Below are positions 7,259-40,319 of a stretch of DNA of 64,000 nt, in pieces (position 1 is the stretch's first letter; each line of letters begins with the position of its first letter). Below the pieces are notes generated by a model that saw only the letters and a list, made by a program, of their open reading frames with translations, had not been told where the DNA came from and did no database searches. The stretch comes from Croceivirga thetidis (lineage in GTDB: Bacteria; Bacteroidota; Bacteroidia; Flavobacteriales; Flavobacteriaceae). The position numbers and the translations under genes were made by a program. The stretch lies in NCBI RefSeq assembly GCF_012272815.1, contig NZ_JAAWWL010000001.1, positions 62,001 through 126,000 of the forward strand. The letters are read 5' to 3'.

Positions 7259-7262
7259 TTGA

Positions 7263-7961: not shown

Positions 7962-7974
7962 TCGGTTTTATTAA

Positions 7975-8700: not shown

Positions 8701-8710
8701 GTTAAATCTG

Positions 8711-8718
8711 TATTTTTG
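8711..8718 (+). promoter_or_regulatory. -7 promoter box of tamL (TATTTTTG)
   Basis: TATTTTTG matches TAnnTTTG and lies 6 bases before the ATG at 8725. A TTGG near 8689 could serve as the -33 element. The position indicates a nearly leaderless transcript and decides the start codon of the following gene. Confidence 0.6.
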
Positions 8719-8724
8719 GCCGTT

Positions 8725-11316: not shown

Positions 11317-11331
11317 ACCTGAATTATTTCT

Positions 11332-11339
11332 TACTTTTG
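11332..11339 (+). promoter_or_regulatory. -7 promoter box of fbaA-accD (TACTTTTG)
   Basis: TACTTTTG matches TAnnTTTG. It lies 29 bases before the fbaA ATG and only about 15 bases after the tamL stop, so fbaA-accD has its own promoter. Confidence 0.65.
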
Positions 11340-11368
11340 TCACCTAATTTTATTCAACCGACTAAAAA

Positions 11369-12436: not shown

Positions 12437-12451
12437 TTAAAAACCTTTTTT

Positions 12452-13330
12452 ATGACGGCCTGGTTCAAGAGGAAAGAAAAGGGAATTCAAACGACTACCG
12501 AAGAAAAGAAAGACACTCCCAAAGGGTTGTGGTACAAATCGCCTACAGGTAAAATTGTTGAATCTGAAGATTTAGCCAAAAACTTTTACGTTAGTCCGGA
12601 AGACGATTACCATGTTCGAATTGGAAGCAAAGAGTATTTTGAAATTCTTTTCGATGATAATAAATTCAGGGAACTGGATGAGAAATTATCATCAAAAGAC
12701 CCTTTGAAATTTGAGGATACAAAAAAATACAGTGACCGACTAAAAGCTGCGAAATCGAAAACAGGATTGAACGATGCCGTTCGAACTGCCGTCGGAAAAT
12801 CTATGGGCAAAGACCTGGTAGTAGCTTGTATGGATTTTAGTTTTATAGGTGGCTCAATGGGTAGTGTTGTTGGGGAAAAAATTGCTCGTGCAATTGATTA
12901 TGCCAAAAAGAAAAAATTACCCTTTTTAATGATTTCAAAATCGGGAGGTGCCCGAATGATGGAGGCAGCACTTTCACTTATGCAATTGGCAAAAACTTCA
13001 GTGAAATTAGCGCAATTGGCTGAAGCTAAAGTTCCCTATATTTCATTATGTACCGACCCTACAACTGGTGGTACAACTGCCTCATATGCCATGTTGGGTG
13101 ACATCAACATCGGGGAACCTGGTGCGCTAATAGGTTTTGCAGGACCAAGGGTGGTAAAGGATACTGTTGGAAAAGATTTGCCTGAAGGTTTTCAAACAGC
13201 AGAATTTGTTCAGGAACACGGCTTTTTAGATTTTATCGTTCATAGACGTGAACTCAAGAAAAAGGTCAACCAATACATCGATTTGATTACAAATCAACCT
13301 TTCCGAAGAATGACCGAAGAAGTTGAGTAA
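12452..13330 (+). CDS. accD: Acetyl-CoA carboxylase carboxyltransferase subunit beta (zinc ribbon cysteines absent)
   Basis: This 292-residue beta subunit of acetyl-CoA carboxyltransferase works with AccA to move the carboxyl group from biotin to acetyl-CoA in fatty acid synthesis. The core is standard: [41 protein letters not shown] and [11 protein letters not shown]. The N-terminal zinc ribbon is unusual. The family normally has two CxxC pairs, but here the corresponding sites read KSPTGK (Ser30, Gly33) and VSPEDD (Ser48, Asp51), so no zinc ligand is left. I recall the same loss in other flavobacterial AccD, so it is probably lineage-wide rather than damage. A terminator follows. Confidence 0.95.
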
Positions 13331-26287: not shown

Positions 26288-26575
26288 ATGAAAACTAAAG
26301 CAATTTTAACCAGTATAGTTATTAGCACAATTTGCATGATATCAGTTAACGCACAGCAATCAAATAATAGGGAGAGACGACAACCCCCAAGTATAGATAA
26401 GTTATTTGAGCATATGGATAAAAATGAAGACGGCTTCCTCTCAGAAGAAGAAGTAAAAGGACCTCTTAAAGAAATGTTTGCAAAAATTGATGCAAACGAA
26501 GATGGTCTCCTTTCAAGAGAAGAAATCGAGAAAGCGCCAAAACCAGAAAGAAGAGATAGACCTAACAGAAATTAA
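26288..26575 (+). CDS. Exported EF-hand calcium-binding protein
   Basis: This 95-residue protein has an N-terminal signal peptide ending near NAQQ. Two canonical 12-residue EF-hand loops follow, DKNEDGFLSEEE and DANEDGLLSREE, with Asp1, Asn3, Asp5, Gly6, Ser9 and Glu12. The tail is basic and Pro/Arg-rich. It likely binds Ca2+ in the periplasm; the target is unknown. It is the first gene of the run opposite the ECF sigma operon and is followed 11 bases later by the YHYH lipoprotein. Confidence 0.85.
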   Translation: MKTKAILTSIVISTICMISVNAQQSNNRERRQPPSIDKLFEHMDKNEDGFLSEEEVKGPLKEMFAKIDANEDGLLSREEIEKAPKPERRDRPNRN

Positions 26576-26586: not shown

Positions 26587-27363
26587 ATGAAAGTAAAAAC
26601 AGCAATATTGATTTTAAGTATTGGTATAATGGCAGTACTAGCCTGTAGTTCAGATGCTGATGATTCAATTGTATTCACGGATGACGAATCAACAACCGAT
26701 GACGATGGTACGGCAGAAGAGGTTACGCTTAGTGCGGCATTCAGTGAATTTGACGCTAACGAGACAACCATCTATTTGGATGGAAACAATGTGGTTATTG
26801 AAACAACAGGTTTTCCCAACCATGAAACTGTCTATTGGGGGGTCGGCAATGAACTATACCGCGAAGAACCCGATGTTGATTTAACACCAAGTAGAATACC
26901 AAATTTTGATGGATCGGCAACCTTGGTAGTTTCAGCCAATCCACAATTGGCGTCTTCAAGTACTTCTACCAGTCTAGGCGCAATTGGGATTGCAGTCAGT
27001 GGTGCGGCAATTTTCAATGACCAAGAAGGGAATGGTCCCTTATCCGGTGCAGCAGGAAGTCTTGATTGGACAGGAGCCCATATTGGACCCAGTGTTTATC
27101 ATTATCATCTTGAGCCTAAAGCATGGTCAGATGATGACGGTGCTTTAATTGGGATTTTAGCCGATGGTTTCTTCATTTATGGACGACGGGATTATGACGG
27201 AAATTACCCCACAGATTTGGATGAATCGGGAGGACATTTTGGACCTACACCGCATAATCCTGAAGAGGAATATCATTACCACATACAGAATGAACTCTAC
27301 TTAAATCAGTACTATGTCATATTTCCAGGTGATTACCAGGGTACCCCTAGCAGCATCAATTAA
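26587..27363 (+). CDS. YHYH domain lipoprotein
   Basis: This 258-residue lipoprotein has the signal MKVKTAILILSIGIMAVLAC (lipid-bound Cys20) and an Asp/Thr-rich linker. It then has a YHYH domain defined by two YHYH motifs at 171-174 and 229-232. Conserved neighbours are HIGPSVYHYH, DGFFIYGRRDYDG and HFGPTPHNPEEEYHYH. The paired His/Tyr motifs and acidic residues suggest a metal site, but the family has no established function that I know of. It sits between EF-hand and MORN/SCO1 genes; its 3' end overlaps the next gene by 50 bases in another frame. Confidence 0.85.
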   Translation: MKVKTAILILSIGIMAVLACSSDADDSIVFTDDESTTDDDGTAEEVTLSAAFSEFDANETTIYLDGNNVVIETTGFPNHETVYWGVGNELYREEPDVDLTPSRIPNFDGSATLVVSANPQLASSSTSTSLGAIGIAVSGAAIFNDQEGNGPLSGAAGSLDWTGAHIGPSVYHYHLEPKAWSDDDGALIGILADGFFIYGRRDYDGNYPTDLDESGGHFGPTPHNPEEEYHYHIQNELYLNQYYVIFPGDYQGTPSSIN

Positions 27364-27943
27364 GTCTATTATCCTCGTAATAGTTTTCGGAATAATGTCG
27401 TTGATTGGATTAGACCAAGAAAAGAAGGAAAACGGTCCTCTGATTAAAGAAATATGGATTGAAAAAGACAAATTAGAACTAAACAAACTAGAAGGAAGAT
27501 GGTATTTTAATCAGACAGTTTTCAATGGTTACGCCATCACTAGATTTGAAAATGGACGACTCAAAGAGAAAATAGGATTCTCTAATGGGAAAAAACAAGG
27601 TCCCGCATACTCTTGGCACAATGATGGTGCTCTAGCAAGCGAAAAAAATTATATAGCGAATCGACAAGAAGGAATAGCCAAAACCTGGTGGTCCAATGGA
27701 CAATTAAGTTCTGAATCCAACTACAAAAATAGGATTCGACATGGTGAACAAAAAAGATGGTACCCTAATGGGTTATTGGCAAGAGTCATGCATTTTAATG
27801 AAGGTAAAGAGGAAGGCCTACAACAAGCTTGGTTACCATCTGGCAAGCTTTATGTCAATTATGAAGCCAAACATGGTCGTTTTTTTGGATTAAGGCGTTC
27901 AAATCTTTGTTATGAATTAAAGGATGAAGTGGTTCAAAAGTAA
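27314..27943 (+). CDS. MORN-repeat (YwqK-type) protein with N-terminal membrane segment
   Basis: This 209-residue protein has an N-terminal hydrophobic segment (IKSIILVIVFGIMSLIGL) and about four MORN_2-type repeats of the form NG-x-L-x(10)-G-x(3)-G. Examples are FENGRLKEKIGFSNGKKQG, WWSNGQLSSESNYKN and WYPNGLLARVMHFNEGKEEG. Such proteins are often labelled YwqK antitoxins by similarity, but no toxin is evident here, so I do not adopt that role. The ATG at 27314 lies inside the YHYH gene (50-base overlap) and is needed for the full membrane segment; the next Met is at 27395. It overlaps the SCO1-like gene by 20 bases. Confidence 0.78.
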   Translation: MSYFQVITRVPLAASIKSIILVIVFGIMSLIGLDQEKKENGPLIKEIWIEKDKLELNKLEGRWYFNQTVFNGYAITRFENGRLKEKIGFSNGKKQGPAYSWHNDGALASEKNYIANRQEGIAKTWWSNGQLSSESNYKNRIRHGEQKRWYPNGLLARVMHFNEGKEEGLQQAWLPSGKLYVNYEAKHGRFFGLRRSNLCYELKDEVVQK

Positions 27944-28586
27944 ATTTGGTATTTGTATTCTGACACTATTGGTCAGTTGCAATACACAGGTTAAAAAAGA
28001 GAAATCAAGTAGGGTTGAAAAGTTGCCATTTTATAATGATGCATCTTTCACTCCACATTGGGTAGATTCTGAGAGTGAACAAAGTGGTTTGCACCAAATT
28101 CCACCGTTTGAAGTTATAAATCAGTTCGGTGATACTATCACCGAACAAACTTTCAATGACAAAATTTATGTGACAGATTTCTTTTTTACATCCTGCCCTG
28201 GTATTTGCCCTAAAATGACCAATAATATGCTCTTGGTTCAGGAAGCATTTGAAGAAGATGAGGAGGTTCTTCTACTTTCTCATTCTGTGACTCCTGAATA
28301 TGATTCGGTACCAGTACTAAAACATTATGCGGATGCTAAGGGAGTATTGGAACAAAAATGGCATTTAGTTACCGGTAATAGAAACGAAATTTATAAGCTT
28401 GGGCGTACCGCCTATTTCGTCGATGAGGACCTGGGTGAACCAAAAGGCTTAGAAGACTTTTTACACACCGAAAACTTCATTTTGATAGATAAAAACCGTC
28501 ATATACGTGGTATCTACAACGGGCTCAACAAAACAGCTATTTCCCAATTAATTGCTGATATAAAAACTCTCAAAAAGGAAGGATGA
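27924..28586 (+). CDS. SCO1/SenC/PrrC family lipoprotein
   Basis: This 220-residue lipoprotein (lipobox LLVSC, Cys19) has a thioredoxin-like fold. The copper or redox motif CPGICP places Cys at 91 and 95, and the third copper ligand is likely His181 in FLHTENFILID. SCO proteins deliver Cu to the CuA site of cytochrome c oxidase or act as periplasmic thiol reductases. No oxidase genes are nearby, so a role with the YHYH and EF-hand proteins is possible. It overlaps the MORN gene by 20 bases, pointing to translational coupling. Confidence 0.88.
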   Translation: MKWFKSKFGICILTLLVSCNTQVKKEKSSRVEKLPFYNDASFTPHWVDSESEQSGLHQIPPFEVINQFGDTITEQTFNDKIYVTDFFFTSCPGICPKMTNNMLLVQEAFEEDEEVLLLSHSVTPEYDSVPVLKHYADAKGVLEQKWHLVTGNRNEIYKLGRTAYFVDEDLGEPKGLEDFLHTENFILIDKNRHIRGIYNGLNKTAISQLIADIKTLKKEG

Positions 28587-28589
28587 AAT

Positions 28590-28622
28590 ATTTCTAAAGC
28601 TTCTTTCGTTTGCTTTAGAAAT
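28590..28622 (+). other. Stem-loop between the SCO1-like and second EF-hand genes
   Basis: A perfect 11-bp inverted repeat ATTTCTAAAGC/GCTTTAGAAAT has an 11-base loop and no following T run. It starts a few bases after the SCO1 stop. It could adjust expression of the distal EF-hand gene by RNA processing or weak attenuation. Confidence 0.5.
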
Positions 28623-28632
28623 AAATCTTACC

Positions 28633-28914
28633 ATGATAAAAGCGCTAACCAAATTCACAGTATTTTCTTTCTCTATATTTAGTTTTTCAAGCAGTCTAGC
28701 CCAAGAGGACAAAGTTGAAAAACAATCCCAAAAACAAGTTTTAAAAGATATGTTTGAGAAGATGGATGAAAACAAAGATGGTAAACTTACTTTAGGAGAA
28801 GCAAAGGGCACTCTTCTTTTAAATTTTACCACATTGGATGCCAATAAAGATGGGGTTTTAACCAAAGAAGATCTCGAAAAATTCGACCTGCCAAATCAAC
28901 CTAAACCAGAATAA
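28633..28914 (+). CDS. Second exported EF-hand protein
   Basis: This 93-residue protein has a signal peptide (hydrophobic about 8-22, cleavage near SLAQ) and two EF-hand loops, DENKDGKLTLGE and DANKDGVLTKED. The second loop ends in Asp rather than Glu. It is a paralogue of the EF-hand protein at 26288-26575 with a similar layout, so the operon is bracketed by two related Ca2+-binding proteins. It ends three bases before the convergent glycerate kinase gene, with no visible terminator. Confidence 0.85.
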   Translation: MIKALTKFTVFSFSIFSFSSSLAQEDKVEKQSQKQVLKDMFEKMDENKDGKLTLGEAKGTLLLNFTTLDANKDGVLTKEDLEKFDLPNQPKPE

Positions 28915-28917
28915 CTT

Positions 28918-30048
28918 TTAGCTATTTTTCTTTAAAATAGATGCAAAGTTATAAATCGCAAAAGCGAGGTTTTCTTTTGCATTTACCATTGCTTCCTCGA
29001 GATTACTTATACCTTTTGAAACGGAGACCGCATAGTCCAGACCCATTGTGCTCTGGTCTTCAACACTGAGTTCAATTCCACCACAAAAAGCGGCTACAGG
29101 TATATTTTTAGACTTGGCCGAAGACAGAACACCGCCAATTGTTTTACCCGAAAGTGTTTGTGAATCCAAATTACCTTCGCCGGTAATAATCCAATCCGCC
29201 CCTTCAATTTGATTGTCAAAGTCTGCAATTTCCTTAATCAAATCAATTCCTGAGACCAAATCACCATTTAAAAAGGCTACCGCACCACCACCAAGACCGC
29301 CGGCTGCACCAGCACCCGGTATTTTTTGAAGATTTAGACCAAAAGTACTTTGAATCAATCCTGCGAAATTTTCCAATCCTTTATCAAGTAATTCAATTTC
29401 TTGAGGTGTAGCTCCTTTTTGTTTGGCATAGACTTGAGCTGCCCCATTTTTTCCATAAAATGGATTATCAACATCACAAGCAACTTGAACTTTAACCGCC
29501 TCCATCATATCCAGTTCAGGTTTTTCAATTCTGGCAACCTTGTTCAAGTTTTTTCCTGTAGGACTTAATTCCTCTCCATTTATATCCATAAAACGATAAC
29601 CAAGAGCTTGAGCAACCCCCATTCCACCATCATTGGTGGCACTTCCTCCGATTCCTAAGATGATGTTTTTTGCACCTTTTTGAATGGCGTCAAAAATGAG
29701 TTCTCCGGTCCCCAGGGTGGTAGCCTCTTTACAATCTAATTCTGAGTGATCTAGTAATCGATGACCTGAAGCTGTTGACATTTCAATAAAGGCGGTCTTC
29801 TTAGATTGTGAATAGAGATAAGTAGCAGAAACTGATCTAAAAAAAGGATCGGAAACTGTTTTATTTACCACTGAAGCATCCAAATATCGCTCGACGACTT
29901 CCAAAGTTCCATCTCCACCATCCGCAAGCGGAAGCTGTACCAATTCTGCACTTGGATAAATCTTTTTAATCTCCGTAGCTACAATTTCACAGAATTCCTG
30001 GCCTGAAAGCGAACCTTTAAATTTATCGGGTGCAATAACAAATTTCAT
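28918..30048 (-). CDS. Glycerate kinase (GK-I type)
   Basis: This 376-residue enzyme phosphorylates D-glycerate. It has the family N-terminus MKFVIAPDKFKGSLSG, LPLADGGDGTLEVVERYL, GIGGSATNDGGMG around residues 135-148 and PGAGAAGGLGGG further on. GK-I enzymes usually make 2-phosphoglycerate (GarK/GlxK type). It is the last gene of the minus-strand locus containing a GH63 glycosylglycerate hydrolase-like gene, which would release glycerate, so the pair forms a sensible pathway into lower glycolysis. It lies eight bases after the symporter gene. Confidence 0.93.
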   Translation of the reverse strand: MKFVIAPDKFKGSLSGQEFCEIVATEIKKIYPSAELVQLPLADGGDGTLEVVERYLDASVVNKTVSDPFFRSVSATYLYSQSKKTAFIEMSTASGHRLLDHSELDCKEATTLGTGELIFDAIQKGAKNIILGIGGSATNDGGMGVAQALGYRFMDINGEELSPTGKNLNKVARIEKPELDMMEAVKVQVACDVDNPFYGKNGAAQVYAKQKGATPQEIELLDKGLENFAGLIQSTFGLNLQKIPGAGAAGGLGGGAVAFLNGDLVSGIDLIKEIADFDNQIEGADWIITGEGNLDSQTLSGKTIGGVLSSAKSKNIPVAAFCGGIELSVEDQSTMGLDYAVSVSKGISNLEEAMVNAKENLAFAIYNFASILKKNS

Positions 30049-30056
30049 GCTTGTAA

Positions 30057-31661
30057 CTAGCTTAGGATATTCGGCAGGGCTATACTAATTGCTATAATGA
30101 ACAAGAAAAAACCGACCAAAATCAACACCTCTTTTTTACCAGAGTAATATACCACAGGCAATCCTTCATTAGCCTGCTTCTTAACTATCACACTGACAAA
30201 ATAGGCTACGATCATCGTTACCAAACAACCAATGGCATTCCACCAGAACCAGAATACCTCAGGCACATATAACCACAAGTACATATTGAACAAAACTCCT
30301 ACCACAATACCGATATTTGCTCCTAGTGCGTGTGTCTTTTTCGTAAGAATCGCCAAAATGAACGCTGCCAATATTGGACCATAGAATACAGAACTAATTT
30401 TATTGATCACCTCAATGACAGTACCTTCAATCTCACCTGCAAATAGTGCAAAGGCCAAGCAAACCACACCCCAAAAAAGAGAAAGCAAACGAGAATTGAA
30501 CACATAAGCCTTATCACTCATCTCAGGTTTAAATCGTTTTACAAAATCCTCCATAGTTACCGCTGAAAGTGAATTAACTGTTGAACTTAATGATGACATG
30601 GCAGCCGACATAATAGCTACAATCAAAACACCAATTACACCATTCGGCAAATATTTCAAAATAAAAACAGGCACCATTAAATCAGCCTTTTTACCCTCTA
30701 ACGAACTTATGTTCGTTTGATACGTTGAATCTAATAGTTCTTGAAAACCTGCATCTTGTAAAAGCAAGGTTCCTAAAACAAGACCCATAATGCAATAGGT
30801 CAAGGTCAATGGAAAACGGAAAAGACCATTGGCCAACAATAACTTTTTAATTGTGGGCATTCCACTTGCAGAAAGCAATCGTTGTGATTGGGTCTGATCT
30901 GTACCGTAATAAGAGGCATATAGAAAGAAACCACCTATTATCATTGGCCAAAAACCAAATTCATCATTCTTGTCAGCATTGTTAAAACCCCATTTTGAAA
31001 AATCGACGGCTGTTAAACGGTCCTTATCCACATGGGTCAAGAAGTTATCAAAGCCACCCAATTCACTGAGACCGTAAATCAAACAAATAACAATACCCAA
31101 AAAGAGAATGATCATTTGAATTACATCACCCCATATTACTGCTTTCATTCCCCCTTGGAATGAATACACAAGGGTAATTACTCCAATTATTAAAATTGAA
31201 ATCAAGAAATTAACACCAACAGTTGCTTGCAAAATCAACGCCATAGTATAAACCATAACCCCTGTAGCAACTGACCGACTTATTTGAAATACAAAGCTTA
31301 TCAATAGTCGAGATGAAGCATCGAATCGTTTTTCCAAATACTCGTAAACACTAACAATACCAGATTTATAAAGTGTCGGAATTACTGCAATCAATAAAAA
31401 CGCCATTGCCAAAGGCACACCAAATTCGTAGGTAAGCCATTGCAATCCCCCACCCTCTTTTAAACCTACAAATGCGGGAGCCGAAATAAAACTAATGGCC
31501 GACAACTGTGTTGCCATAGTTGACAAACTCAATGGAAACCAGCCCATACTTCTTCCCCCCAAAAAGTAATCACCAGAACTTTTATTTTCTTTAAACAGGT
31601 ATCCAATACCCAGAAAACCAACGAGGTAAACTATGATGATGACATAATCGACAATATTCAT
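30057..31661 (-). CDS. Sodium:solute symporter (SSS family)
   Basis: This 534-residue inner-membrane transporter has about 13 hydrophobic segments. Family markers are NKSSGDYFLGGRSMGWFPLS, ATQLSAISFISAPAF and MSAAMSSLSSTVNSLSAVTM. It drives uptake of a solute with Na+, as common in marine bacteria. Between an acetyltransferase and glycerate kinase in the locus, it probably imports a glycosylglycerate or its product; the substrate is inferred only. Its ATG overlaps the preceding stop by four bases (ATGA). Confidence 0.92.
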   Translation of the reverse strand: MNIVDYVIIIVYLVGFLGIGYLFKENKSSGDYFLGGRSMGWFPLSLSTMATQLSAISFISAPAFVGLKEGGGLQWLTYEFGVPLAMAFLLIAVIPTLYKSGIVSVYEYLEKRFDASSRLLISFVFQISRSVATGVMVYTMALILQATVGVNFLISILIIGVITLVYSFQGGMKAVIWGDVIQMIILFLGIVICLIYGLSELGGFDNFLTHVDKDRLTAVDFSKWGFNNADKNDEFGFWPMIIGGFFLYASYYGTDQTQSQRLLSASGMPTIKKLLLANGLFRFPLTLTYCIMGLVLGTLLLQDAGFQELLDSTYQTNISSLEGKKADLMVPVFILKYLPNGVIGVLIVAIMSAAMSSLSSTVNSLSAVTMEDFVKRFKPEMSDKAYVFNSRLLSLFWGVVCLAFALFAGEIEGTVIEVINKISSVFYGPILAAFILAILTKKTHALGANIGIVVGVLFNMYLWLYVPEVFWFWWNAIGCLVTMIVAYFVSVIVKKQANEGLPVVYYSGKKEVLILVGFFLFIIAISIALPNILS

Positions 31662-32251
31662 AATTTGTTTTTTAAAATTTCTTTTTCGGTACTAAACCAC
31701 TCATCTTTCAAAATACCCAATAAAACAGCATCGGAACGACCAATACTGTTTATGGATGGAAATGCATTTCTAATTCTCCCCTCTTCCTTACACCCTACAC
31801 TTTTCATGGCCGCTATACTTACTTTGTTTTCAATATGGGCACCCAGTCCTACACGCTCAAGGTTTAGTTTCTCGAAGGCGAATTGGAACATAAGATACTT
31901 ACAATTCTTATTGAGTCCGGTTCCTCTGAATTCTTGTCCATACCAAGTGTACCCCAACCTGATGATCCTTAAATCAGATTGGTAGTCGAAAAAACGAGTG
32001 CATCCAGCATATTTTGACTTTTTCTTGTCGTATATGGCAAAGGGGTATTCTTTTTTCAGCTTACGGAAATCAATTGCATCCGAAATGTAGTGTTTAAAGT
32101 CATGGGCACCATTTGAACGACCTAAAAAATAGGTCCAAATTTCCTTTTCTTTTGCCCAAATAGTTAATGTTTGATAATGATGCTCTTCAAGGGGTTCAAG
32201 ACGTACCCGATTGTTTTCTAGAACATAATTTTCATTGAAATCAAACAACAT
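31658..32251 (-). CDS. GNAT family N-acetyltransferase (RimJ/RimL-like)
   Basis: This 197-residue protein has the acetyl-CoA binding region GYTWYGQEFRGTGLNKNCKY and the later GLGAHIENKVSIAAMKSVGC, typical of RimJ/RimL-like GNAT enzymes. These acetylate ribosomal proteins, antibiotics or small amines. Its role within a sugar locus is unclear. It starts four bases after the GH63-like gene and overlaps the symporter gene by four, so it is co-translated and may modify a pathway intermediate or may be incidental. Confidence 0.85.
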   Translation of the reverse strand: MLFDFNENYVLENNRVRLEPLEEHHYQTLTIWAKEKEIWTYFLGRSNGAHDFKHYISDAIDFRKLKKEYPFAIYDKKKSKYAGCTRFFDYQSDLRIIRLGYTWYGQEFRGTGLNKNCKYLMFQFAFEKLNLERVGLGAHIENKVSIAAMKSVGCKEEGRIRNAFPSINSIGRSDAVLLGILKDEWFSTEKEILKNKL

Positions 32252-32254
32252 AGT

Positions 32255-33568
32255 TTAATCTGAGAGCAAAAAGTCTATTAAAAGTGCGGCTGTCCAAGAA
32301 AAGTTGTCTCCGCCATAACCGCTATTTTCCGCATCAGGATTTTCCTTTCTAGCATCAAAATATTCGAAAAATCCATTTTGTTTTACCAGTTCAATGGAAT
32401 CATTTTTTATTCTTGAAGCAAGTTCATTGTAACCATGATTTTTTAATCCTTGATAAAGCATCCAGTTCACATTTATCCAAACCGGACCCCTCCAGTATTT
32501 TCTTGGATTAAATCTTTCATGGGTAGGGTCAAATGATGCACACAAGTATTTATCTTCTCCACCAAAGCGTTCAAGCATGGTACTAACAAGTCGTTCGGCC
32601 TTTATGGCGTCAGGCACCTCAGAATACAGAGGTGTGAACGAAGAGGAACAAATGTAGGGCAGTTGTTTACCTTGTCGTAAATCATAGTGAACGTATGCTC
32701 CCAAATCTTCATTGAACAATTTTGTATTCATGCCCGAAATACTCAAAGCTTGTTTCTCTCTTAAAAGTGCGGTTATGTCTTCATTACCACCGAGCAATTC
32801 ATAAAGTCTTATCAATGAAGCATTGGACTGTATGAGCATTGTGTTGAACAACGGGTCTTGGACCAAGAAAGGTGAATGTTCGGCTATTGCTTTATCATCA
32901 TAGTTATATTTTTTGGCAATATCAATGATATATAAGTAGTGATCATATTCCCTTTTTGTTGGACGCTGGGCAGCATCAACATGGGTGGTATCGCGCCTTT
33001 CAAATGTATATTCTGGAGGATTCATGGTCTTCCAGATATCATCCCAAATAGGAGAGTTATCGGTACCCGATTCCCAATTGTGATAAATATAAACCAGCCC
33101 TTCTTTATGGATATCACGATTTTCGTAGAAGTACATATGGTTATTGAAAACCTTGTCAATGTGTTTTTCAATAAATGCCAACATATCATTTTTATCCTCG
33201 GCAATCCGGTACAAATGCTCTAGGATAAATCCAAAAACTGGCGGTTGGGTCATACCTGTAGAAGGATACTCTTTTGATGATTTTGGATGAAGACTTGACT
33301 CATGAAAATCCTTACCAGGAAAATAGGTGTCAGTTTCTGTATGAAATACTATGTGGGGAATAAAACCATTACCCCATTGGGCATTCAATATTGTTTCAAC
33401 CTCCTTTTTGGCCTTAGCAACGTCATAATGGGCAAAACCCAAGGCGATGAAACCCGAATCCCATTTCCATTGAAAAGGATAAAGACCTTTACTGGGAATT
33501 GTAAATCCACCATCTTGATAGTTGTCGTTTAAGACCTTTTTAGCTTTCGCCAACAGTTCTTCACTCAT
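32255..33568 (-). CDS. GH63 MGH1-like glycoside hydrolase (mannosylglycerate/glucosylglycerate hydrolase type)
   Basis: This 437-residue protein has no signal peptide and is thus cytoplasmic. It shows the (alpha/alpha)6-barrel pattern of mannosylglycerate/glucosylglycerate hydrolases: FQWKWDSGFIALG near the N-terminus, WESGTDNSPIWDD with the likely general acid Asp170, and FFEYFDAR with likely base Glu402, followed by GYGGDNFSWTAALLI. Length agrees with characterised MgH/GgH enzymes (about 420-450). It would split alpha-mannosylglycerate (digeneaside) or glucosylglycerate into hexose and D-glycerate. A glycerate kinase gene three places downstream strongly supports that. Other GH63 substrates remain possible. 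It lies just past a terminator-like hairpin after the TonB receptor gene. Confidence 0.85.
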   Translation of the reverse strand: MSEELLAKAKKVLNDNYQDGGFTIPSKGLYPFQWKWDSGFIALGFAHYDVAKAKKEVETILNAQWGNGFIPHIVFHTETDTYFPGKDFHESSLHPKSSKEYPSTGMTQPPVFGFILEHLYRIAEDKNDMLAFIEKHIDKVFNNHMYFYENRDIHKEGLVYIYHNWESGTDNSPIWDDIWKTMNPPEYTFERRDTTHVDAAQRPTKREYDHYLYIIDIAKKYNYDDKAIAEHSPFLVQDPLFNTMLIQSNASLIRLYELLGGNEDITALLREKQALSISGMNTKLFNEDLGAYVHYDLRQGKQLPYICSSSFTPLYSEVPDAIKAERLVSTMLERFGGEDKYLCASFDPTHERFNPRKYWRGPVWINVNWMLYQGLKNHGYNELASRIKNDSIELVKQNGFFEYFDARKENPDAENSGYGGDNFSWTAALLIDFLLSD

Positions 33569-33584
33569 TGATTTGGTTTATAGA

Positions 33585-33620
33585 AAAACACTGGTGACTG
33601 CAACCCATCACCAGTGTTTT
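33585..33620 (-). terminator. Terminator or attenuator after the TonB receptor gene
   Basis: A perfect 13-bp stem AAAACACTGGTGA/TCACCAGTGTTTT with a 10-base loop ends in Ts on both strands. It lies between the receptor stop (33657) and the GH63-like start (33568). It would let the receptor be expressed more strongly than the enzymes behind it. Confidence 0.8.
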
Positions 33621-33656
33621 AATGAACTAAACTAACTTAAACTAATTCGTACAATT

Positions 33657-36320
33657 CTAAAAATTAAATGTGGCGGTCAAAAAGAATCTTCTTGGTAATA
33701 TGGGGCGACCAAAGAAAAAATCACCATCATCTACCTGACCACCAATTCCTGCACGTGGGTTACCTTCGGTAAGTCCAACACTGTCAAACAAATTAAATAC
33801 TGATGCTCCCAAACGAACTGTATTCACATCTGCTGTTCTAAATGTATATCCGAAGCCCAGTCTTGCAATTGTAATGGCGTCTAGTTCAACATTATTGCCA
33901 TCATCAGTAAATTTGCTACCAGTGTGGTTTAGGGTGAAATTGGCATCAAACTTCTTATCGTCGTAGTTTAACCCTAAACTACCTAAGAAGTTAGGTTGAC
34001 GACCAATTTCATTGCCTTCGTTAATGGTTGTGACATCTCCGGTAAGGAGGTTTGTGGTTTCATTTTTAGTGATTTCGTGATTTTGATAGGTTGCCGTACC
34101 GTTAAAACTGAAATTATCAGTAAAGCGATATAACCACGAAGCTTCCAAACCGACTGTAGAAGTTGTTTGCTCACTTCTTGCCTGATCTTCCAATTGACCA
34201 TTTACAATCGCTTGGTCTATACGAATCCTATCTTGTAAGGTTACATAATACCCGGCAATCGAACCAGAAAATTTAGAGGTTCCGAATTTTGCACCCGTTT
34301 CAAATTGGAGTATAGTTTCTCCATCATAATTTGATTCACGAATTCCAGGTGTTGGAACAAATCCTCTTTGTTGTGGCCAGAAGAATCCTCGAGAAAAGTT
34401 AGCGTAGAGATTTGTTGCTTCAGTTAGTTCATACAAACCTGCTAAGGAAACAGCCCAATCCGTTGCATTTATTTCAGCAGTGGTAAAACTGCCATCAGCA
34501 AAACGAACATTGGCTAATTCTGCTGTCAATTCAGGATTGTCATAAACTTGGCTTTCTTCAAGACCACCATTGTTAAATGTACCAGTCGTTGACTCTACAC
34601 GAACTCCAACGTCAAAACGCCATCTGTCAAAAATCATCTCATCGGTTACATAAAAGGCTGTTCTACTTTGAGATAAAAACCTATTTGAGGTCATACCGAT
34701 TCTATTGTAAATACCGCCATCCGAATACACAACATTACCACCTCCTGCATCGGTGTAACTCAAGTTTACCAATCTAGGGTTATTATTGAATTCTGAAAGA
34801 ACTCGATACTGCCAGTTAACATCCTCGGCTTCAGTTCTGGCCATATAAGTACCCAATGTAAATGTATGCTCCCTACTATTGGTTCTAAGAATCAAGTTTG
34901 CATCACCCGAATAATCAGTCATCGGTCTTAAACGATCTACATGCAAATTTTCAACGACAAGGTCGCTTCCGTTTATTTGATCACCGCTACCACCTTGGTA
35001 AGTTGCATTAAAGGCTGTATTGTCTGGCGCAACTTGTGCAACATAGTTGCTAAGCGTCAGTGGATTTCCAAATGTTCCGTTACCGCCAACATATAGTGCA
35101 AAATTGTGCTCGTAATTAGCGTATCTGATTTTCGATTTGAAACTTACCAAATCACTAAAATTGTAGACAAAATCTCCCATTAAATAACCACCTTTCGCGG
35201 AAACCCCATCTTCAATCGGGCTTTTATAGACACCACCAGGAGTTAAGAATGACGTTTCGGCCAATTCGCCAGAAAGTAATTGCTCTACATCTTCACCATC
35301 GTTACCTGCAATACGCTCCCTATCAGAACCAAGGGGCAATGGCAAGAAGAACTGTGCATTGTCATCAATGTATTGACCATGTATGGTGAATGAACCATTT
35401 TCAAAACGTTTCTTAATGTTACCCCTGAATTGTACACCTCTGGTAGTCAAGCCTGTTTCTATAGGACCGTCATCTTTACGAACAAAACCAGTAAATGCAT
35501 AAAAGGTGTTCGAATCTTCACCACCCAATTGACCACCGCTGTAGAAATCAGTTTTGAGACGCCCGCGGCTTCCCCATTCCACATTAATGATGTTACCAGG
35601 GTTGGTGTCACCGGTTTTACTGGTGTAGTTGATCAAACCTGCGACCGAACCCGCACCGTACAGCACTGCAGCACCACCACGAACAAATTCAACTCCTTTG
35701 AATCCGATATCAGGTCGTGCATACACATCGTGTGCAGATGAGTTTAAACCAAACGTACTCATCAAAGGCATTCCATCATATTGTAATGGATTGAAAACGT
35801 ATTGACCTCCAGAGGGTAAACCTCTAACAAATAAGTTTGTGGCTGTTTCACCACCACCACCTTCAGCGGTTATACCTGGTACATCACGTAAAATATCTGC
35901 CTGTGAATTGGCTGATAATTTTGTAATCTCAGCAATCTTTTTAGAACTGATCGACAATGGTGCCTGCTTTTGAGACCTAAAAGTTGTAGAGGCAGATATT
36001 ACGACCTCATCCAATTGTTGACCGCTCTCTTGTAAAACGACATCCAAAGTCACTTGACTTCCATTTAAATCCACCGTTCGTTCAACAGTGGTAAATCCAA
36101 TAAAGGAAAATTGGACCGTTTGAGAACCAGTAAGGTTTGTGGTCAACACAAAGTTGCCATCAAAATCAGTTGTGGTACCTTCAGTCGAACCAGCAATTAG
36201 TACGTTTGTACCTAATATAGGAACACCAGCTTCATCTTTAACGGAACCAACAATTTCTGTCTGGGCATATACCGTAGTAAAACCAAACAGAACAAGTACC
36301 GCAATAAGTAAATTTTTCAT
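33657..36320 (-). CDS. TonB-dependent outer-membrane receptor with CarboxypepD_reg domain
   Basis: This 887-residue receptor has a signal peptide (MKNLLIAVLVLFGF to VYAQ, about 1-20). A carboxypeptidase-like regulatory domain follows (about 21-110, starting IVGSVKDEAGVPILGTNV), then the plug (ILRDVPGITAEGGGG, FVRGLPSGGQ, GVEFVRGGAAVLYGAGSVAG) and a 22-strand barrel ending in Phe (LTATFNF). It takes up a ligand too large or scarce for porins. No SusD partner is adjacent, so it is a stand-alone FecA/oligomer-type receptor. Its divergent position from the LacI gene, with LacI-type operators between, suggests regulation by it. Confidence 0.93.
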   Translation of the reverse strand: MKNLLIAVLVLFGFTTVYAQTEIVGSVKDEAGVPILGTNVLIAGSTEGTTTDFDGNFVLTTNLTGSQTVQFSFIGFTTVERTVDLNGSQVTLDVVLQESGQQLDEVVISASTTFRSQKQAPLSISSKKIAEITKLSANSQADILRDVPGITAEGGGGETATNLFVRGLPSGGQYVFNPLQYDGMPLMSTFGLNSSAHDVYARPDIGFKGVEFVRGGAAVLYGAGSVAGLINYTSKTGDTNPGNIINVEWGSRGRLKTDFYSGGQLGGEDSNTFYAFTGFVRKDDGPIETGLTTRGVQFRGNIKKRFENGSFTIHGQYIDDNAQFFLPLPLGSDRERIAGNDGEDVEQLLSGELAETSFLTPGGVYKSPIEDGVSAKGGYLMGDFVYNFSDLVSFKSKIRYANYEHNFALYVGGNGTFGNPLTLSNYVAQVAPDNTAFNATYQGGSGDQINGSDLVVENLHVDRLRPMTDYSGDANLILRTNSREHTFTLGTYMARTEAEDVNWQYRVLSEFNNNPRLVNLSYTDAGGGNVVYSDGGIYNRIGMTSNRFLSQSRTAFYVTDEMIFDRWRFDVGVRVESTTGTFNNGGLEESQVYDNPELTAELANVRFADGSFTTAEINATDWAVSLAGLYELTEATNLYANFSRGFFWPQQRGFVPTPGIRESNYDGETILQFETGAKFGTSKFSGSIAGYYVTLQDRIRIDQAIVNGQLEDQARSEQTTSTVGLEASWLYRFTDNFSFNGTATYQNHEITKNETTNLLTGDVTTINEGNEIGRQPNFLGSLGLNYDDKKFDANFTLNHTGSKFTDDGNNVELDAITIARLGFGYTFRTADVNTVRLGASVFNLFDSVGLTEGNPRAGIGGQVDDGDFFFGRPILPRRFFLTATFNF

Positions 36321-36438
36321 GATTGATAGTTGTTAGTTAAACACTTTTTTCAGTTAATTTTTAATAAATTCTCAGTTTATAGGCTAAAAATATTTGAATA
36401 TGATGCCTGATACCCCTAAAAAATCAGCAAATTCTTAT

Positions 36439-36462
36439 GCAAACGTTTGCGGAAACGATTGC
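36439..36462. promoter_or_regulatory. Tandem LacI-family operators
   Basis: GCAAACGTTTGC at 36439-36450 is a perfect 12-bp palindrome centred on CG, the classic LacI/PurR-family operator form. It runs directly into a second, imperfect copy (GCGGAAACGATTGC, 36449-36462). Both lie between the divergent receptor and regulator genes, 33 bases before the LacI start at 36495 and about 120 bases before the receptor start. They likely mediate autoregulation and control of both arms. Confidence 0.75.
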
Positions 36463-36494
36463 AAAACGTATTATTGCCTTCACAAAACCTGACA

Positions 36495-37517
36495 ATGCGG
36501 CAAAACATTACTTTAAAAGGACTGGCCAAAAAATTGGACTTATCAATATCTACAATCTCAAGGGCGCTTAAAGATCATCCCGACATCAGTGACAAGACCA
36601 AAGAACGTGTACAAAAACTGGCCAAAGAACTGAACTACTCCCCCAATGTATTTGCTCAAGGTTTTCGCTCACATCGTTCCCACATCCTTGGGGTTATCGT
36701 TCCGAATGTTTCACACTACTTCACTACTACAATGCTCAAGGGAATCATGGATGAAGGGGAGGCACTGGGATATCGCATTATCGTTTCAGAATCAAAAGGC
36801 GAAGAAAAAAAACAGATTGAAATGCTTCAGACGATGATTCAATTTGGGGTGGATGGCATTCTAATGTCCTTGGCCAGAAGAACCAAGTCGATAGCAGAAA
36901 TATTGAATATCATGAATCAAATACCCTTGGTACTCTTTGACAAGGTATCCGATAAAATTCCATGTACCCAGGTCGTTATTGATGAAGAAGTAGCTGCCTA
37001 TAATGCCGTGGAACACCTAATCCATACCGGAAAAAGGAGGATTGCCATTATTAAAGAAACCGAGAATTCTTATAATTCGGAAAAACGATTTAAGGGATAT
37101 CTCAAAGCTTTACGAGATAATGATATTGAAATTGATGAAAAGATAATATTAAGTACGGAGGACATCTCACTTGAAAAAGGAAAATCGATGGGAAATATCT
37201 TGCTCAGTCAAAAAAATAGACCTGATGCCGTATTTGCTATAACCGATAGTGCGGCTATTGGGGTAATTAAAGCTTTGAATAAATTCAAGGTCAAAATCCC
37301 AGAAGAAATCGCAGTGGTTGGTTTCAGTAATTCTAAAAGTTCCACCATTGTGAGTCCAAGTTTGACAACCGTAGATCAACCCGGAAATAGAATCGGAAGG
37401 ACCGCACTAAAATACTTGGTTGATGAAATCGAAAATCCTTCAGAAGACTCATTTTCAAAAACTATAGAGGTAAAGACGAATCTCATTATCCGTGACTCCT
37501 CATTTTTACCTGCTTAA
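36495..37517 (+). CDS. LacI family transcriptional regulator
   Basis: This 340-residue regulator has an N-terminal helix-turn-helix (ITLKGLAKKLDLSISTISRA) and hinge (LNYSPNVFAQGFRSHRSHI). A periplasmic-binding-like ligand domain follows from about residue 60 (LGVIVPNVSHYFTTTMLKGI to AVVGFSNSKSSTIVSPSLT). It would bind a sugar-type effector and control the divergent receptor operon and/or the downstream genes. A longer frame with TTG at 36447 exists but would run through the operators, so the ATG at 36495 is the start. The Ala-Leu pair of the hinge helix (often LAR) is replaced by FAQG, a minor variation. Confidence 0.92.
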   Translation: MRQNITLKGLAKKLDLSISTISRALKDHPDISDKTKERVQKLAKELNYSPNVFAQGFRSHRSHILGVIVPNVSHYFTTTMLKGIMDEGEALGYRIIVSESKGEEKKQIEMLQTMIQFGVDGILMSLARRTKSIAEILNIMNQIPLVLFDKVSDKIPCTQVVIDEEVAAYNAVEHLIHTGKRRIAIIKETENSYNSEKRFKGYLKALRDNDIEIDEKIILSTEDISLEKGKSMGNILLSQKNRPDAVFAITDSAAIGVIKALNKFKVKIPEEIAVVGFSNSKSSTIVSPSLTTVDQPGNRIGRTALKYLVDEIENPSEDSFSKTIEVKTNLIIRDSSFLPA

Positions 37518-37612
37518 TGGTCTTCATACTTCTAAATAATTTTTATCAACCAAGCGACTTTTACAATTGTTCCTATTTTTAAATTTTTCAAACTGACTTA
37601 ACGCTAAACTAA

Positions 37613-38764
37613 ATGACGAAAATTAATATCCGTTCCAAAGATTTAGACGGTGCTGAAATTTCATGGTTTGCTCCAATTTGTGATGGTGATGATCGCTATT
37701 TAGGTGAGCGCGATCCAAATTTTAAAAGCAATTGGAAAAATACATCAGACATACTGCTAACCGCTGACGAACTAGGGTACCGAAACATCTTATGCCCATC
37801 TTCATATCAAGTAGGTCAAGATACCCTACCTTTTGTTTCAGCTGTAGCACCCTTGACAAAGAACATTAATCTTTTGGCGGCGATTCGCTGTGGCGAAATA
37901 CACCCACCGATGTTGGCTCGTACCTTGGCAACAATAGATCACATTTTAGAAGGAAGGCTGACCGTAAATATCATCTCATCCAATCTGCCAGGCGAAGAAT
38001 TGAGTTCTGAAGACCGTTATCAACGTTCACGAGAGGTCATTGAAGTTTTGAAACAGGCTTGGACCAAAGATGAAATTGAAATTGATGGTAACTTTTACAA
38101 GTTAAAATTACCCTCAAATCCTGGTAAACCCTATCAAAAAAATGGCCCCTTGCTATATTTCGGCGGATACTCTCCACCAGCAGTTGACCTATGTGCCGAA
38201 CATTGTGATGTTTACCTCATGTGGCCGGAAACTGAGGGAAATTTGGAAAAACACATGCGCAACATGAGTGCAAAAGCAGCCGCCCACGGCAGAACCGTTG
38301 ATTTCGGTCTTCGGGTTCATATGGTTGTCCGGGAAACGGAGGAAGAAGCACGAGCTTATGCCGATAGTATTATTTCAAAATTGGATTTGGAGCAAGGGAA
38401 AGAGATTCGTGAGCGCGCATTGGATGCCAAATCTTATGGGGTCAGCAAGCAAACAGCAATGCGCGACCAAGCAGATAATGATGGTTATATTGAATCCCAT
38501 TTATGGACGGGAATAGGTAAAGGCCGATCGGGTTGTGGGGCTGCCTTGGTTGGAAATCCTGATCAAATAGTAAATAAAATCAATAGGTATATGGAAATGG
38601 GTATCCGTTCCTTTATTTTTTCTGGTTATCCACATCTAGAGGAATGCAAGCGTTTTGCTGAACTGGTTTTACCCCGACTAAAAACAGTCTCCTTCCCGAT
38701 ATCACAAGGAAAAGTAACTGATCAAATCCCTAGTTCTCCATTAGCTGGTGGAATTCGTATTTAA
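37613..38764 (+). CDS. SsuD-like FMNH2-dependent sulfonate monooxygenase (LLM family)
   Basis: This 383-residue bacterial luciferase-like flavin monooxygenase closely matches alkanesulfonate monooxygenase SsuD. Conserved segments include YLGERDPNF, LLAAIRCGEIHPPMLARTLA and LLYFGGYSPPAVDL. The sulfonate-site Arg and His lie in FGLRVHMVVRE (Arg234, His236), with WTGIGKGRSGCGAALVG and SGYPHLEE near the end. These enzymes cut C-S bonds of sulfonates, releasing sulfite; sulfoquinovose monooxygenases belong here too. No flavin reductase partner is nearby, so it must borrow one. It follows the LacI gene by 95 bases and is 10 bases before a sugar-type symporter, suggesting a sulfosugar substrate (inference). 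Confidence 0.85.
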   Translation: MTKINIRSKDLDGAEISWFAPICDGDDRYLGERDPNFKSNWKNTSDILLTADELGYRNILCPSSYQVGQDTLPFVSAVAPLTKNINLLAAIRCGEIHPPMLARTLATIDHILEGRLTVNIISSNLPGEELSSEDRYQRSREVIEVLKQAWTKDEIEIDGNFYKLKLPSNPGKPYQKNGPLLYFGGYSPPAVDLCAEHCDVYLMWPETEGNLEKHMRNMSAKAAAHGRTVDFGLRVHMVVRETEEEARAYADSIISKLDLEQGKEIRERALDAKSYGVSKQTAMRDQADNDGYIESHLWTGIGKGRSGCGAALVGNPDQIVNKINRYMEMGIRSFIFSGYPHLEECKRFAELVLPRLKTVSFPISQGKVTDQIPSSPLAGGIRI

Positions 38765-38774
38765 ATAATATTAA

Positions 38775-40319
38775 ATGGTTGATTTAGTATTGGTACTGGT
38801 CTATTTCGCAGCTGTAATGATTGCAGCTATTTCTGGCCGGCAAAAAGGTGAAGTTACGAGTGAAGACTATTTTTTAAGTTCTAGAAGCTTAAAATGGCCC
38901 TCCATAGCATTTTCGACCATTGCGACAAACGTTCAGGGCTATCAGTTTTTAGGCATGATGGGCTCGGCCTACCTCTACGGACTGGCACAAGCAAGTCTCG
39001 AAATTAATGCCATACAAGGTATTCTTTTGGCTGCCTTCATTTTTGTACCACTTTACCTCAAAGAAAAGGTGGTGACCATTACCCAGTTCATTAAAACTAG
39101 ATTGGGCAAAAAAGTAGCACTAGCCTATTCACTTTCAAACATATTTTTGTTCTCGACCATCACTATAGGCGCTGCGTTGTTTTGGGGGGCCTATGCAGCA
39201 GACATTGTTTTTGGTGAATACCTTGCCTTAATACATGAAGATCGCTTGACTAGAATAACCATCTTGATTTTTATTCTGGGATTGTTTTCTGCTATCTACA
39301 CCTATCTTGGCGGACTAAGTGCTGTGGTCAAGACCGATGTCATTCAATTTTTGATTCTATTCGCTGGGGGTATTACAGTGTTGTTCATTGCCATTCATCA
39401 TCTTGGAGGTTGGTCTCAGCTATATCAAAAAACACCTGAGTTGATGCATTTACACCTTCCAGCGGATCATGAAAAATTACCTTGGCCCCATATTTTTGGA
39501 CTGTTCCTATTGAATATCAATTATTGGTGCGCCAACCAATCGGTTGTGCAACGATCATTGGCTGCCAAGAATTTAAAACAGGCCCAAATTGGCCTTATGG
39601 TCGGAGGCCTGATGAAATACGCAATGGCTATAATTATTGTAGTACCTGGAATAGCATTGGTTGGTATTTTAGGTTCGAAAGGTCTTGGAGACCCAGACAT
39701 GGCTTTCCCTTATTTGGTCAACACCTATTTACCTATTGGTGCTAAAGGATTAGTGCTTTGTGCCCTTTTCGCCTCTTTAATGAGTACTGTCGATTCAACC
39801 TTCAACTCATTGGCTACGTTGTGGTCAATTGATATTTATAAAGGATATTTAAAAAAGGATGCTCCGGATAAAGAAGTAGTAAAGGCTGGCAAACGTGCAA
39901 TTTTATTTGCATTCATATCTGGGGTGACCATCGGTGTGGTTCTACTGTATCTGAAATTTTCGGATCCGGACGCTGCGTTCACCCATACCTTGAATGAATT
40001 GCGTTATTACATTAATTGTGCAATTGTGGTCTTGATATGCGCTGCGGTATTCTTATTTGCTCCAAAGCACAAAGTGGCTTTTTTGGCCTTTTTTGCCACT
40101 ATTGCACTACAATTTGTCTTTAAAGCCGCATTCCCTGAAATGAATTACTTCATTCGGGCTATGTGGGTTATTGTTTGTGGTTTTTTGATAATTGCTTTGG
40201 GTTCTATGACCAAATTCACCTCTTGGAAGGAGCTTTTTAACCCTGCTTCGAAGAAAATCACCCAATTCGGAATTGGGATGTTAGCTTCGCTGGTACTGCT
40301 ACATATTATTTTTCATTGA
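38775..40319 (+). CDS. Sodium:solute symporter (SSS family, SGLT-like)
   Basis: This 514-residue inner-membrane protein has about 14 hydrophobic segments. It begins in the SSS style (TSEDYFLSSRSLKWPSIAFS) and carries NINYWCANQSVVQRSLAAKN, like the NQxxVQR segment of sugar-type (SGLT) symporters. ASLMSTVDSTFNSLATLW further on fits the Na+ site region. It likely imports a sugar or sulfosugar with Na+ for the adjacent monooxygenase. It is a different subtype from the symporter at 30057-31661, so the locus has two distinct transporters. It is convergent with the PfpI-like gene, 87 bases away. Confidence 0.9.
   Translation: MVDLVLVLVYFAAVMIAAISGRQKGEVTSEDYFLSSRSLKWPSIAFSTIATNVQGYQFLGMMGSAYLYGLAQASLEINAIQGILLAAFIFVPLYLKEKVVTITQFIKTRLGKKVALAYSLSNIFLFSTITIGAALFWGAYAADIVFGEYLALIHEDRLTRITILIFILGLFSAIYTYLGGLSAVVKTDVIQFLILFAGGITVLFIAIHHLGGWSQLYQKTPELMHLHLPADHEKLPWPHIFGLFLLNINYWCANQSVVQRSLAAKNLKQAQIGLMVGGLMKYAMAIIIVVPGIALVGILGSKGLGDPDMAFPYLVNTYLPIGAKGLVLCALFASLMSTVDSTFNSLATLWSIDIYKGYLKKDAPDKEVVKAGKRAILFAFISGVTIGVVLLYLKFSDPDAAFTHTLNELRYYINCAIVVLICAAVFLFAPKHKVAFLAFFATIALQFVFKAAFPEMNYFIRAMWVIVCGFLIIALGSMTKFTSWKELFNPASKKITQFGIGMLASLVLLHIIFH

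Follow-up and report, generated by a model that had tools for sequence, protein, structure and literature searches.

A putative LacI-repressed operon for the use of glycosylglycerate, most likely mannosylglycerate, in Croceivirga thetidis

Known glycosylglycerate systems and layout of the locus

Genes for digeneaside (mannosylglycerate) degradation have been reported in Zobellia galactanivorans, with homologues in Maribacter dokdonensis 62-1 (PMC8072126). Two enzymes with solved structures can be compared with the hydrolase described here: the mannosylglycerate hydrolase (MgH) of Thermus thermophilus (PDB 2z07, 4wva), and the glucosylglycerate hydrolase (GgH) of Mycolicibacterium hassiacum (MhGgH; PDB 5ohc), which is reported to mobilise the cell's own store (PMC6608630). 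A preliminary description of the present DNA called mannosylglycerate a major red-algal solute. The compound is indeed a solute of some red algae, but "major" is too broad, because digeneaside is reported as mainly a product of the Ceramiales with a minor osmotic role (PMC8523428). Low-molecular-weight solutes of algae and cyanobacteria serve as food for marine bacteria and are hard to spot in genomes.

In the window (the whole 64,000-nucleotide stretch of DNA from the marine flavobacterium C. thetidis that was analysed), all five co-oriented genes of the preliminary description were found on the minus strand between 28918 and 36320, in the same order: a TonB-dependent receptor (TBDT; 33657..36320; 887 aa; Pfam PF00593 and PF07715, 82 and 57 bits), a predicted GH63/MGH1-like glycosylglycerate hydrolase (32255..33568; 437 aa), a RimJ/RimL-like GNAT acetyltransferase (31658..32251; Pfam PF13302, 60 bits), an SLC5-like sodium:solute symporter (SSS; 30057..31661; 534 aa; Pfam PF00474, 164 bits) and, at the end, a glycerate kinase (GK; 28918..30048; 376 aa; PF02595, 442 bits; TIGR00045, 421 bits with a cut-off of 168). 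From glycerate kinase to receptor the intergenic gaps are 8, -4, 3 and 88 bp, the 4-nt overlap (ATGA) lying between the GNAT reading frame and the symporter start. The unit is larger than first noted: lacI and its putative operator belong to it too. Both the divergent lacI and the operator were absent from the preliminary description.

That this is not a standard polysaccharide locus proved right. Like SusCD polysaccharide loci, it combines a glycoside hydrolase with a TonB-dependent receptor that has a carboxypeptidase-D-like N-terminal domain behind a signal peptide (MKNLLIAVLVLFGFTTVYAQ, by eye). However, the receptor is flanked by GH63 and lacI, no SusD was found among the 10 proteins scanned (27314-40319), the receptor scored 92 bits with the SusC model, whose cut-off is 368, and the hydrolase is apparently cytosolic, with no signal peptide seen by eye.

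Gene order, put forward earlier as a check, was compared in the window and the best 80 of 110 relatives, a sample that is therefore biased to close homologues. Of the 71 loci whose flanks were long enough, the window among them, 56 had the full set of lacI, receptor, GH63, symporter and glycerate kinase. The order lacI-TBDT-GH63-SSS-GK was present in Zobellia (L014, L018-L020 and L022) and in most Maribacter loci compared (L012, L023, L026, L027, L029, L030, L040 and L043; L024 and L033 had the same order plus a GNAT gene or GNAT remnant), while Maribacter L013 and L016 were without the TBDT and the flank of L007 was too short to tell. This likeness to the published digeneaside genes lies in the gene order of genomes of those genera, from strains other than the two named above, and not in the published gene list; unlike the window, the Zobellia loci are without GNAT. 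The same operon was found in Emticicia, of another Bacteroidota class, on a 38.6-kb plasmid. The mannosylglycerate operon is a well-supported new example and not a surprise, because the same proposal has already been published for relatives of this bacterium.

Hydrolase, glycerate kinase and transport

The GH63 protein carries both motifs noted earlier, WESGTDNSP and FFEYFD, and matches Pfam PF22422 over the full profile (1-356 of 356; 306 bits, cut-off 27). Its closest solved structure was the Thermus mannosylglycerate hydrolase at 297 bits, with mycobacterial entries at 197-205 bits. Alignment to D182 and E419 of MhGgH predicts D170 as the acid and E402 as the base in the window protein. Thirteen MhGgH residues have been assigned to catalysis, sugar contact or glycerate contact (PMC6608630), and all of them (Y36, W40, W42, D43, Y88, Q115, W177, D182, R216, Y222, Y375, W376 and E419, in MhGgH numbers) were invariant in 81/81 GH63 rows, that is, the window plus 80 relatives. 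The catalytic Asp182 and Glu419 and the glycerate-contacting Tyr36, Trp40, Tyr88, Arg216 and Tyr375 were thus kept in every row. The window protein shares 38.5% identity and all catalytic and substrate residues with Thermus MgH, and 30.9% identity, the same catalytic pair and the same glycerate contacts with MhGgH.

The match of the protein to the Trehalase model PF01204 (53 bits, cut-off 21), and plasmid records that label several GH63 relatives "trehalase family glycosidase", would suit a different small alpha-glycoside as substrate (trehalose-like, glucosylglycerol or an oligosaccharide), with glycerate kinase as a mere neighbour. We regard this as highly improbable, given the full conservation of the five glycerate contacts. 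MhGgH is reported to leave glucosylglycerol and glucosylglycolate uncleaved (PMC6608630). Moreover, glycerate kinase was present in 74 of the 77 rows with enough downstream sequence, and it occurred again with GH63 in three Alphaproteobacteria whose transporters are unrelated. On its residues the window protein is not trehalase- or glucosidase-like, in agreement with the preliminary assignment; several substrate-contact residues were missing from each of the four controls, namely three further PF22422 matches in the same genome and one Streptomyces homologue.

In 60 of the 74 rows whose upstream sequence reached 3.5 kb or more, a receptor homologue lay upstream of GH63; because the other 14 were without it, the receptor is not essential to the scheme. 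The symporter, whose best solved match was a sodium/iodide cotransporter, was found in 75 of the 77 rows with enough downstream sequence, and together with glycerate kinase in 73. Linkage of GH63 and glycerate kinase was also seen on four plasmids outside Flavobacteriia. The conserved glycerate contacts, the frequent pairing of symporter and kinase and the plasmid linkage give good support to the earlier proposal that the locus imports and consumes a glycosylglycerate. As the operon stands on the Emticicia plasmid and other transporters are used in Alphaproteobacteria, transport seems to have been swapped, with the hydrolase and, in several cases, glycerate kinase kept.

Judging from sequence, the locus is probably a catabolic operon under LacI repression whose substrate is an alpha-glycosylglycerate, most likely mannosylglycerate (digeneaside). 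When substrate is absent, LacI would occupy GCAAACGTTTGC, which lies between the divergent promoters, and block lacI itself as well as the operon. Passage of the anionic glycoside through the outer membrane would fall to the receptor, and the sodium symporter is presumed to import it intact across the inner membrane. Cytosolic GH63 would then release mannose and D-glycerate, the latter being converted by glycerate kinase into phosphoglycerate, which would enter glycolysis. Phosphorylation and isomerisation of mannose would be left to products of genes outside the operon, the genome having one phosphomannose isomerase (PMI) match and two ROK-family matches; in some relatives, mannose may be isomerised by a PMI within the operon.

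Mannosylglycerate or glucosylglycerate

Marine cyanobacteria make glucosylglycerate, as plausible a food as the mannosyl compound, and the natural substrate of the same operon could be this compound, or both glycosides equally, with glucose and glycerate as products in the glucosyl case. The sugar cannot be told from the enzyme by itself, because the MgHs of Thermus and Selaginella, which are close homologues, are reported to cleave both glycosides with similar efficiency (PMC6608630). The best model in NCBIfam was that of glucosylglycerate hydrolase (NF047898), although its 312.7 bits fall far under the cut-off of 550. Phylogeny, which had been suggested as the judge between MgH and GgH, was tried with two trees. 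In the GH63 tree, the Bacteroidota rows fell together with Nonomuraea and a plasmid protein of Rubrobacter (86/82, not starred). AU tests did not reject their grouping with MhGgH (p = 0.30) or with the Rubrobacter protein (p = 0.299) but did reject a clade with Thermus MgH alone (p = 0.012), an outcome that leans towards the glucosyl compound. However, these trees are proof neither way, since the MhGgH branch is long and the branches deep in the tree are weak. The Rubrobacter protein (L135) was kept out of the reference enzymes, its identity with the characterised R. radiotolerans MgH being uncertain. Loci without lacI and TBDT (L067, L068, L074 and L077) occur in uncultured single-cell or MAG genomes, which we take to be from the open ocean; if so, they would fit a picocyanobacterial solute.

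The genes that adjoin the operon point the other way. PMI directly followed glycerate kinase in 4/81 rows from 3 genera, with gaps of -4, 3, 2 and 0 bp (PMI identity by Pfam scan was obtained for the L066 copy only), and in the other 77 rows, the window included, the fetched flanks, some of them short, showed no PMI. A D-lyxose/D-mannose isomerase followed GH63 in 5 of the 7 fetched Rhodobacterales plasmid loci, with glycerate kinase next in three, and was absent from the other two. The only glucose-side queries, the genome's own two ROK kinases, gave a single weak match in 80 loci (L051, 24% identity). Furthermore, at the position of Q434, which touches the sugar in MhGgH, Phe stands in the window protein, Thermus MgH and 81/81 rows, a point that is weak as evidence on the sugar because every other homologue in the tree set has Phe too. 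From the recurrent mannose-type isomerases, a mannosyl substrate is favoured over a glucosyl one, though not proven, and glucosylglycerate as the natural substrate seems unlikely. A ROK gene, which could serve either sugar, was observed near GH63 on a Deinococcus plasmid.

A marker set of GH63 residues, glycerate kinase, LacI box and SusD-less receptor would make it possible to score genomes and metagenomes for glycosylglycerate use, and would prevent such genes from being named trehalases or such loci from being counted as polysaccharide loci.

LacI operator, GNAT gene and neighbouring genes

The divergent LacI-family gene was listed with a TTG start at 36447 (36447-37517); based on its sequence and the length of its relatives, the start was corrected to ATG 36495 (36495..37517, plus strand). 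The lacI cluster was present in 62/81 rows with a median of 343 aa. The predicted operator GCAAACGTTTGC (36439..36450) is an exact palindrome and the sole exact copy in the 3.7-Mb genome, and a weaker copy, GGAAACGATTGC, adjoins it (36451..36462). The operator was found exactly in 49/62 lacI spacers and with at most one mismatch in 61/62, compared with 0.08% in mononucleotide shuffles, the motif having been derived from the same spacers. Genome-wide, 15 places had at most one mismatch, and a reversed-pattern control gave 10. A simple ORF call placed only three of the 15 between genes, namely the operator itself and two others, beside which no obvious sugar gene (mannose or glucose) was seen when the neighbours were inspected by eye. 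With so few intergenic sites and no such neighbour, the LacI regulon looks local on sequence grounds.

The GNAT gene is an optional, dispensable member of the operon. A full reading frame was present in 21/81 rows, and at least 7 changes of state were counted on the tree when L033 was coded as present; loss is suggested by the remnants that are left in L033 (106 aa at 50%) and in L063 (23 aa at 48%). The structure of the protein was predicted with a mean pLDDT of 92. Solved relatives of the GNAT were mainly RimJ/RimL or GCN5-type acetyltransferases (at most 55 bits), while aminoglycoside N6'-acetyltransferases matched more weakly (28 and 25 bits).

After lacI come two genes (37613-40319) for a flavin (LLM) monooxygenase (37613-38764) and then a sugar-type symporter. 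Their membership of the operon was weighed and dismissed: none of the 80 loci had an LLM match of at least 90 bits, and where the monooxygenase gene does occur, in two relatives, it makes a separate pair with the symporter. The closest PDB entries to the monooxygenase were 7olf and 7oh2, presumably sulfoquinovose monooxygenases. Control of this pair by the same LacI is quite unlikely; if it were true, the island would couple the use of mannosylglycerate with oxidative desulfonation of sulfoquinovose, both being small algal compounds, in a flavobacterium. Oxidative sulfoquinovose desulfonation is described in a review as mainly alpha- and beta-proteobacterial (PMC12890257).

Operon layout and predicted repression

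The five minus-strand genes of the preliminary description (28918-36320) are present exactly as claimed, and family searches bore out the name of each: a TonB-dependent receptor (TBDT), a GH63 hydrolase (32255-33568), a GNAT acetyltransferase, a sodium:solute symporter (SSS) and a glycerate kinase (GK). From GK up to GH63 the genes are separated by 8, -4 and 3 bp, the GNAT stop and the symporter ATG overlapping as ATGA, and 88 bp lie between GH63 and the receptor. The interpretation of the locus as one for glycosylglycerate use was supported and also refined. The operon is larger than five genes, as a divergent LacI-family gene belongs to the unit, and the repressor-operator pair, the linkage to mannose genes and a plasmid-borne copy are additions to a known kind of operon. 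Because a signal peptide was seen by eye at the start of the receptor and none in the hydrolase, hydrolysis is expected to be cytosolic; the intact glycoside would be taken up first and cleaved afterwards. Glycerate kinase of this family supplies glycolysis.

The lacI gene starts at ATG 36495 (it was listed earlier from TTG 36447), 174 bp from the receptor, and encodes 340 aa, the median in relatives being 343 aa. For comparison, the best 80 of 110 hydrolase relatives in a scan of a genome contig collection, all from Bacteroidota, were kept, giving 81 rows with the window. A spacer scan of these related loci revealed a recurrent palindrome, of which the window holds an exact copy at 36439-36450. 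When the spacer was searched together with 80 nt of the lacI reading frame in the 62 rows having lacI and a following gene, 49 matches were exact, 12 had one mismatch and one had two. Mononucleotide-shuffled spacers reached one mismatch or fewer in 0.08%, a figure that describes the spread of the motif and is not an independent test, since the motif came from these same spacers. Across 1.58 Mb of related loci, 50 of the 52 exact copies sit in the lacI spacer; the others are in L065, where a partial lacI match and the receptor flank it, and in L021. The window operator is the sole exact copy in its own 3.7-Mb genome. Such a distribution points to a putative repressor that would be dedicated, local and self-regulating.

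The hydrolase and its sugar

The best solved matches to the hydrolase were Thermus mannosylglycerate hydrolase (MgH, 297 bits) and mycobacterial entries (197-205 bits). The available text on the glucosylglycerate hydrolase of Mycolicibacterium hassiacum (MhGgH) names Asp182 and Glu419 as catalytic, together with glycerate contacts (PMC6608630). In our alignment, the catalytic and glycerate-contact residues were kept in 81/81 rows (D170, E402, Y30, W34, Y82, R202 and Y358 in the window protein). The test discriminates, since all four controls, a Streptomyces homologue and three other PF22422 matches of the own genome (one of them a 21-bit match), each lack several substrate contacts. The sugar-contacting Gln434 of MhGgH is Phe in Thermus MgH, the window protein and all 81 rows; as every other homologue in the tree also has Phe, this position mainly marks MhGgH as unusual. 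In the trees the Bacteroidota rows clustered (starred) and the deep branching order was weakly supported. AU tests did not reject grouping these rows with MhGgH (p = 0.30) or with the Rubrobacter protein (p = 0.299) and rejected grouping them with Thermus MgH alone (p = 0.012), so the phylogeny suggested as a check in the preliminary description did not separate MgH from GgH. MgH enzymes accept both sugars, according to the same partly available source (PMC6608630).

The natural substrate is most likely mannosylglycerate, with glucosylglycerate as a live rival. Four loci, from three genera, have a type I phosphomannose isomerase (PMI) gene directly after GK (Aquimarina L038, -4 bp; Lutibacter L052 and L059, 3 and 2 bp; Spongiivirga L066, 0 bp). 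The L066 copy was named by Pfam, and the other three were identified through their similarity to it and to the PMI of the own genome. Among plasmid records, seven of the eight listed for Rhodobacterales were considered (Fuscovulum, Jannaschia, Ruegeria, SC52, one of two Loktanella, Paracoccus and Marinovum), and in five of the seven (L137, L145-L148) a D-lyxose/D-mannose isomerase immediately follows GH63, with GK next after it in Jannaschia, Loktanella and Paracoccus. The Marinovum isomerase, misannotated as an ATP synthase delta chain, is 78-86% identical to the others. These loci use an ABC transport system, so that the hydrolase and downstream logic are all they share with the operon. Counted against mannose were the absence of the isomerase after GH63 in Ruegeria and Fuscovulum and the failure to find PMI in the fetched flank of 77/81 Bacteroidota rows. 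Nor was a mannose gene annotated in nine other plasmid loci (Emticicia, Rubrobacter, Rhizobium, Streptomyces, Nonomuraea, Chelatococcus, Thalassospira, Deinococcus and Roseomonas), whose gene tables are incomplete, Nonomuraea having no annotated feature there. The Deinococcus plasmid carries a ROK gene and a gene of the glycerate-kinase-like DUF4147 family beside GH63. The own genome, with one PMI match above cut-off and two ROK matches, would in principle be equipped for mannose and glucose alike; its two ROK kinases as queries gave one weak match in the 80 loci. In Fuscovulum (L136, 6242-6937) and Chelatococcus (L149, 5747-6430), a PIG-L deacetylase gene takes the isomerase's place after GH63 (49.5% mutual identity), a hint that the substrate differs in these two and may be acetylated.

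Mannosylglycerate had been described as a major red-algal solute. Because digeneaside is typical of Ceramiales and osmotically minor, as far as the accessible text states (PMC8523428), the ecological claim has to be narrowed. Zobellia digeneaside degradation genes have homologues in Maribacter dokdonensis 62-1 (PMC8072126, in part), and digeneaside is among predicted flavobacterial substrates (PMC6298971, in part). Among the papers listed in searches on mannosylglycerate and digeneaside, most of them judged by title and abstract opening, no title describes an experimental study of this operon.

Distribution among relatives

Neighbour clustering of the 81 rows showed that six families alone recur widely near GH63 (GH63 81, SSS 78, GK 75, LacI 62, TBDT 62, GNAT 25), every other family reaching at most 11/81. 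Conservation of the proposed gene order was counted in the 71 rows whose flanks reach 3.5 kb or more on either side of GH63: lacI, TBDT, SSS and GK accompany it in 56, 15 of which have GNAT between GH63 and SSS. The remainder have SSS and GK alone (8), lacI, SSS and GK (3) or other patterns (4). The receptor is absent from 14/74 rows with enough upstream sequence. A complete GNAT ORF lies between GH63 and SSS in 21/81 rows, with remnants in two more, and the hydrolase tree requires seven or more changes between presence and absence. Most GNAT relatives of known structure are RimJ/RimL-like. The pathway does not need GNAT.

The trait is patchy, since in a separate kinship sample 13/149 genomes, the own one counted, gave a strong hydrolase match (E <=1e-160). 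The 38.6-kb plasmid pEMTOL04 of Emticicia oligotrophica (L134) carries the complete lacI-TBDT-GH63-SSS-GK set at 1919-10056, with a hydrolase of 44% identity and, by eye, an operator-like sequence ahead of lacI. As its host belongs to Cytophagales, the gene set is probably mobile.

Two main symporter types were observed, about 73-89% versus about 51-57% identical to that of the window. The second is often paired with a more distant GK (38-50%; L024, L033, L039, L047 and others), as if the pair had been swapped jointly. Exceptions are L063, L075, L078 and L082, with a distant symporter and a 54-57% kinase, and the reverse combination in L067, L068, L074 and L077. The locus of Wenyingzhuangia heitensis (L078) has an inserted GH97 glycosidase gene at 11269-13272, with GH63 on one side and the symporter on the other.

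Flanking genes

On the plus strand at 37613-40319, a flavin monooxygenase gene is followed after 10 bp by one for a YidK-like symporter. The best PDB matches of the monooxygenase, nearly full length, were 7olf and 7oh2 (504 and 500 bits), named methanesulfonate sulfonatase and alkanesulfonate monooxygenase, which we take to be sulfoquinovose monooxygenases. The gene occurs in 3/149 genomes including the own one, and the other two carry the same symporter pair. The sulfoquinovose monooxygenase pathway is mainly alpha- and beta-proteobacterial, according to the part of the source available (PMC12890257). Next to the operon, 26288-26575 and 28633-28914 (plus strand) each encode a small protein that looks secreted and, as judged by eye, has paired EF-hand-like motifs; between them lie a gene in which a YHYH motif was seen by eye, one with MORN repeats and a SCO1 gene.
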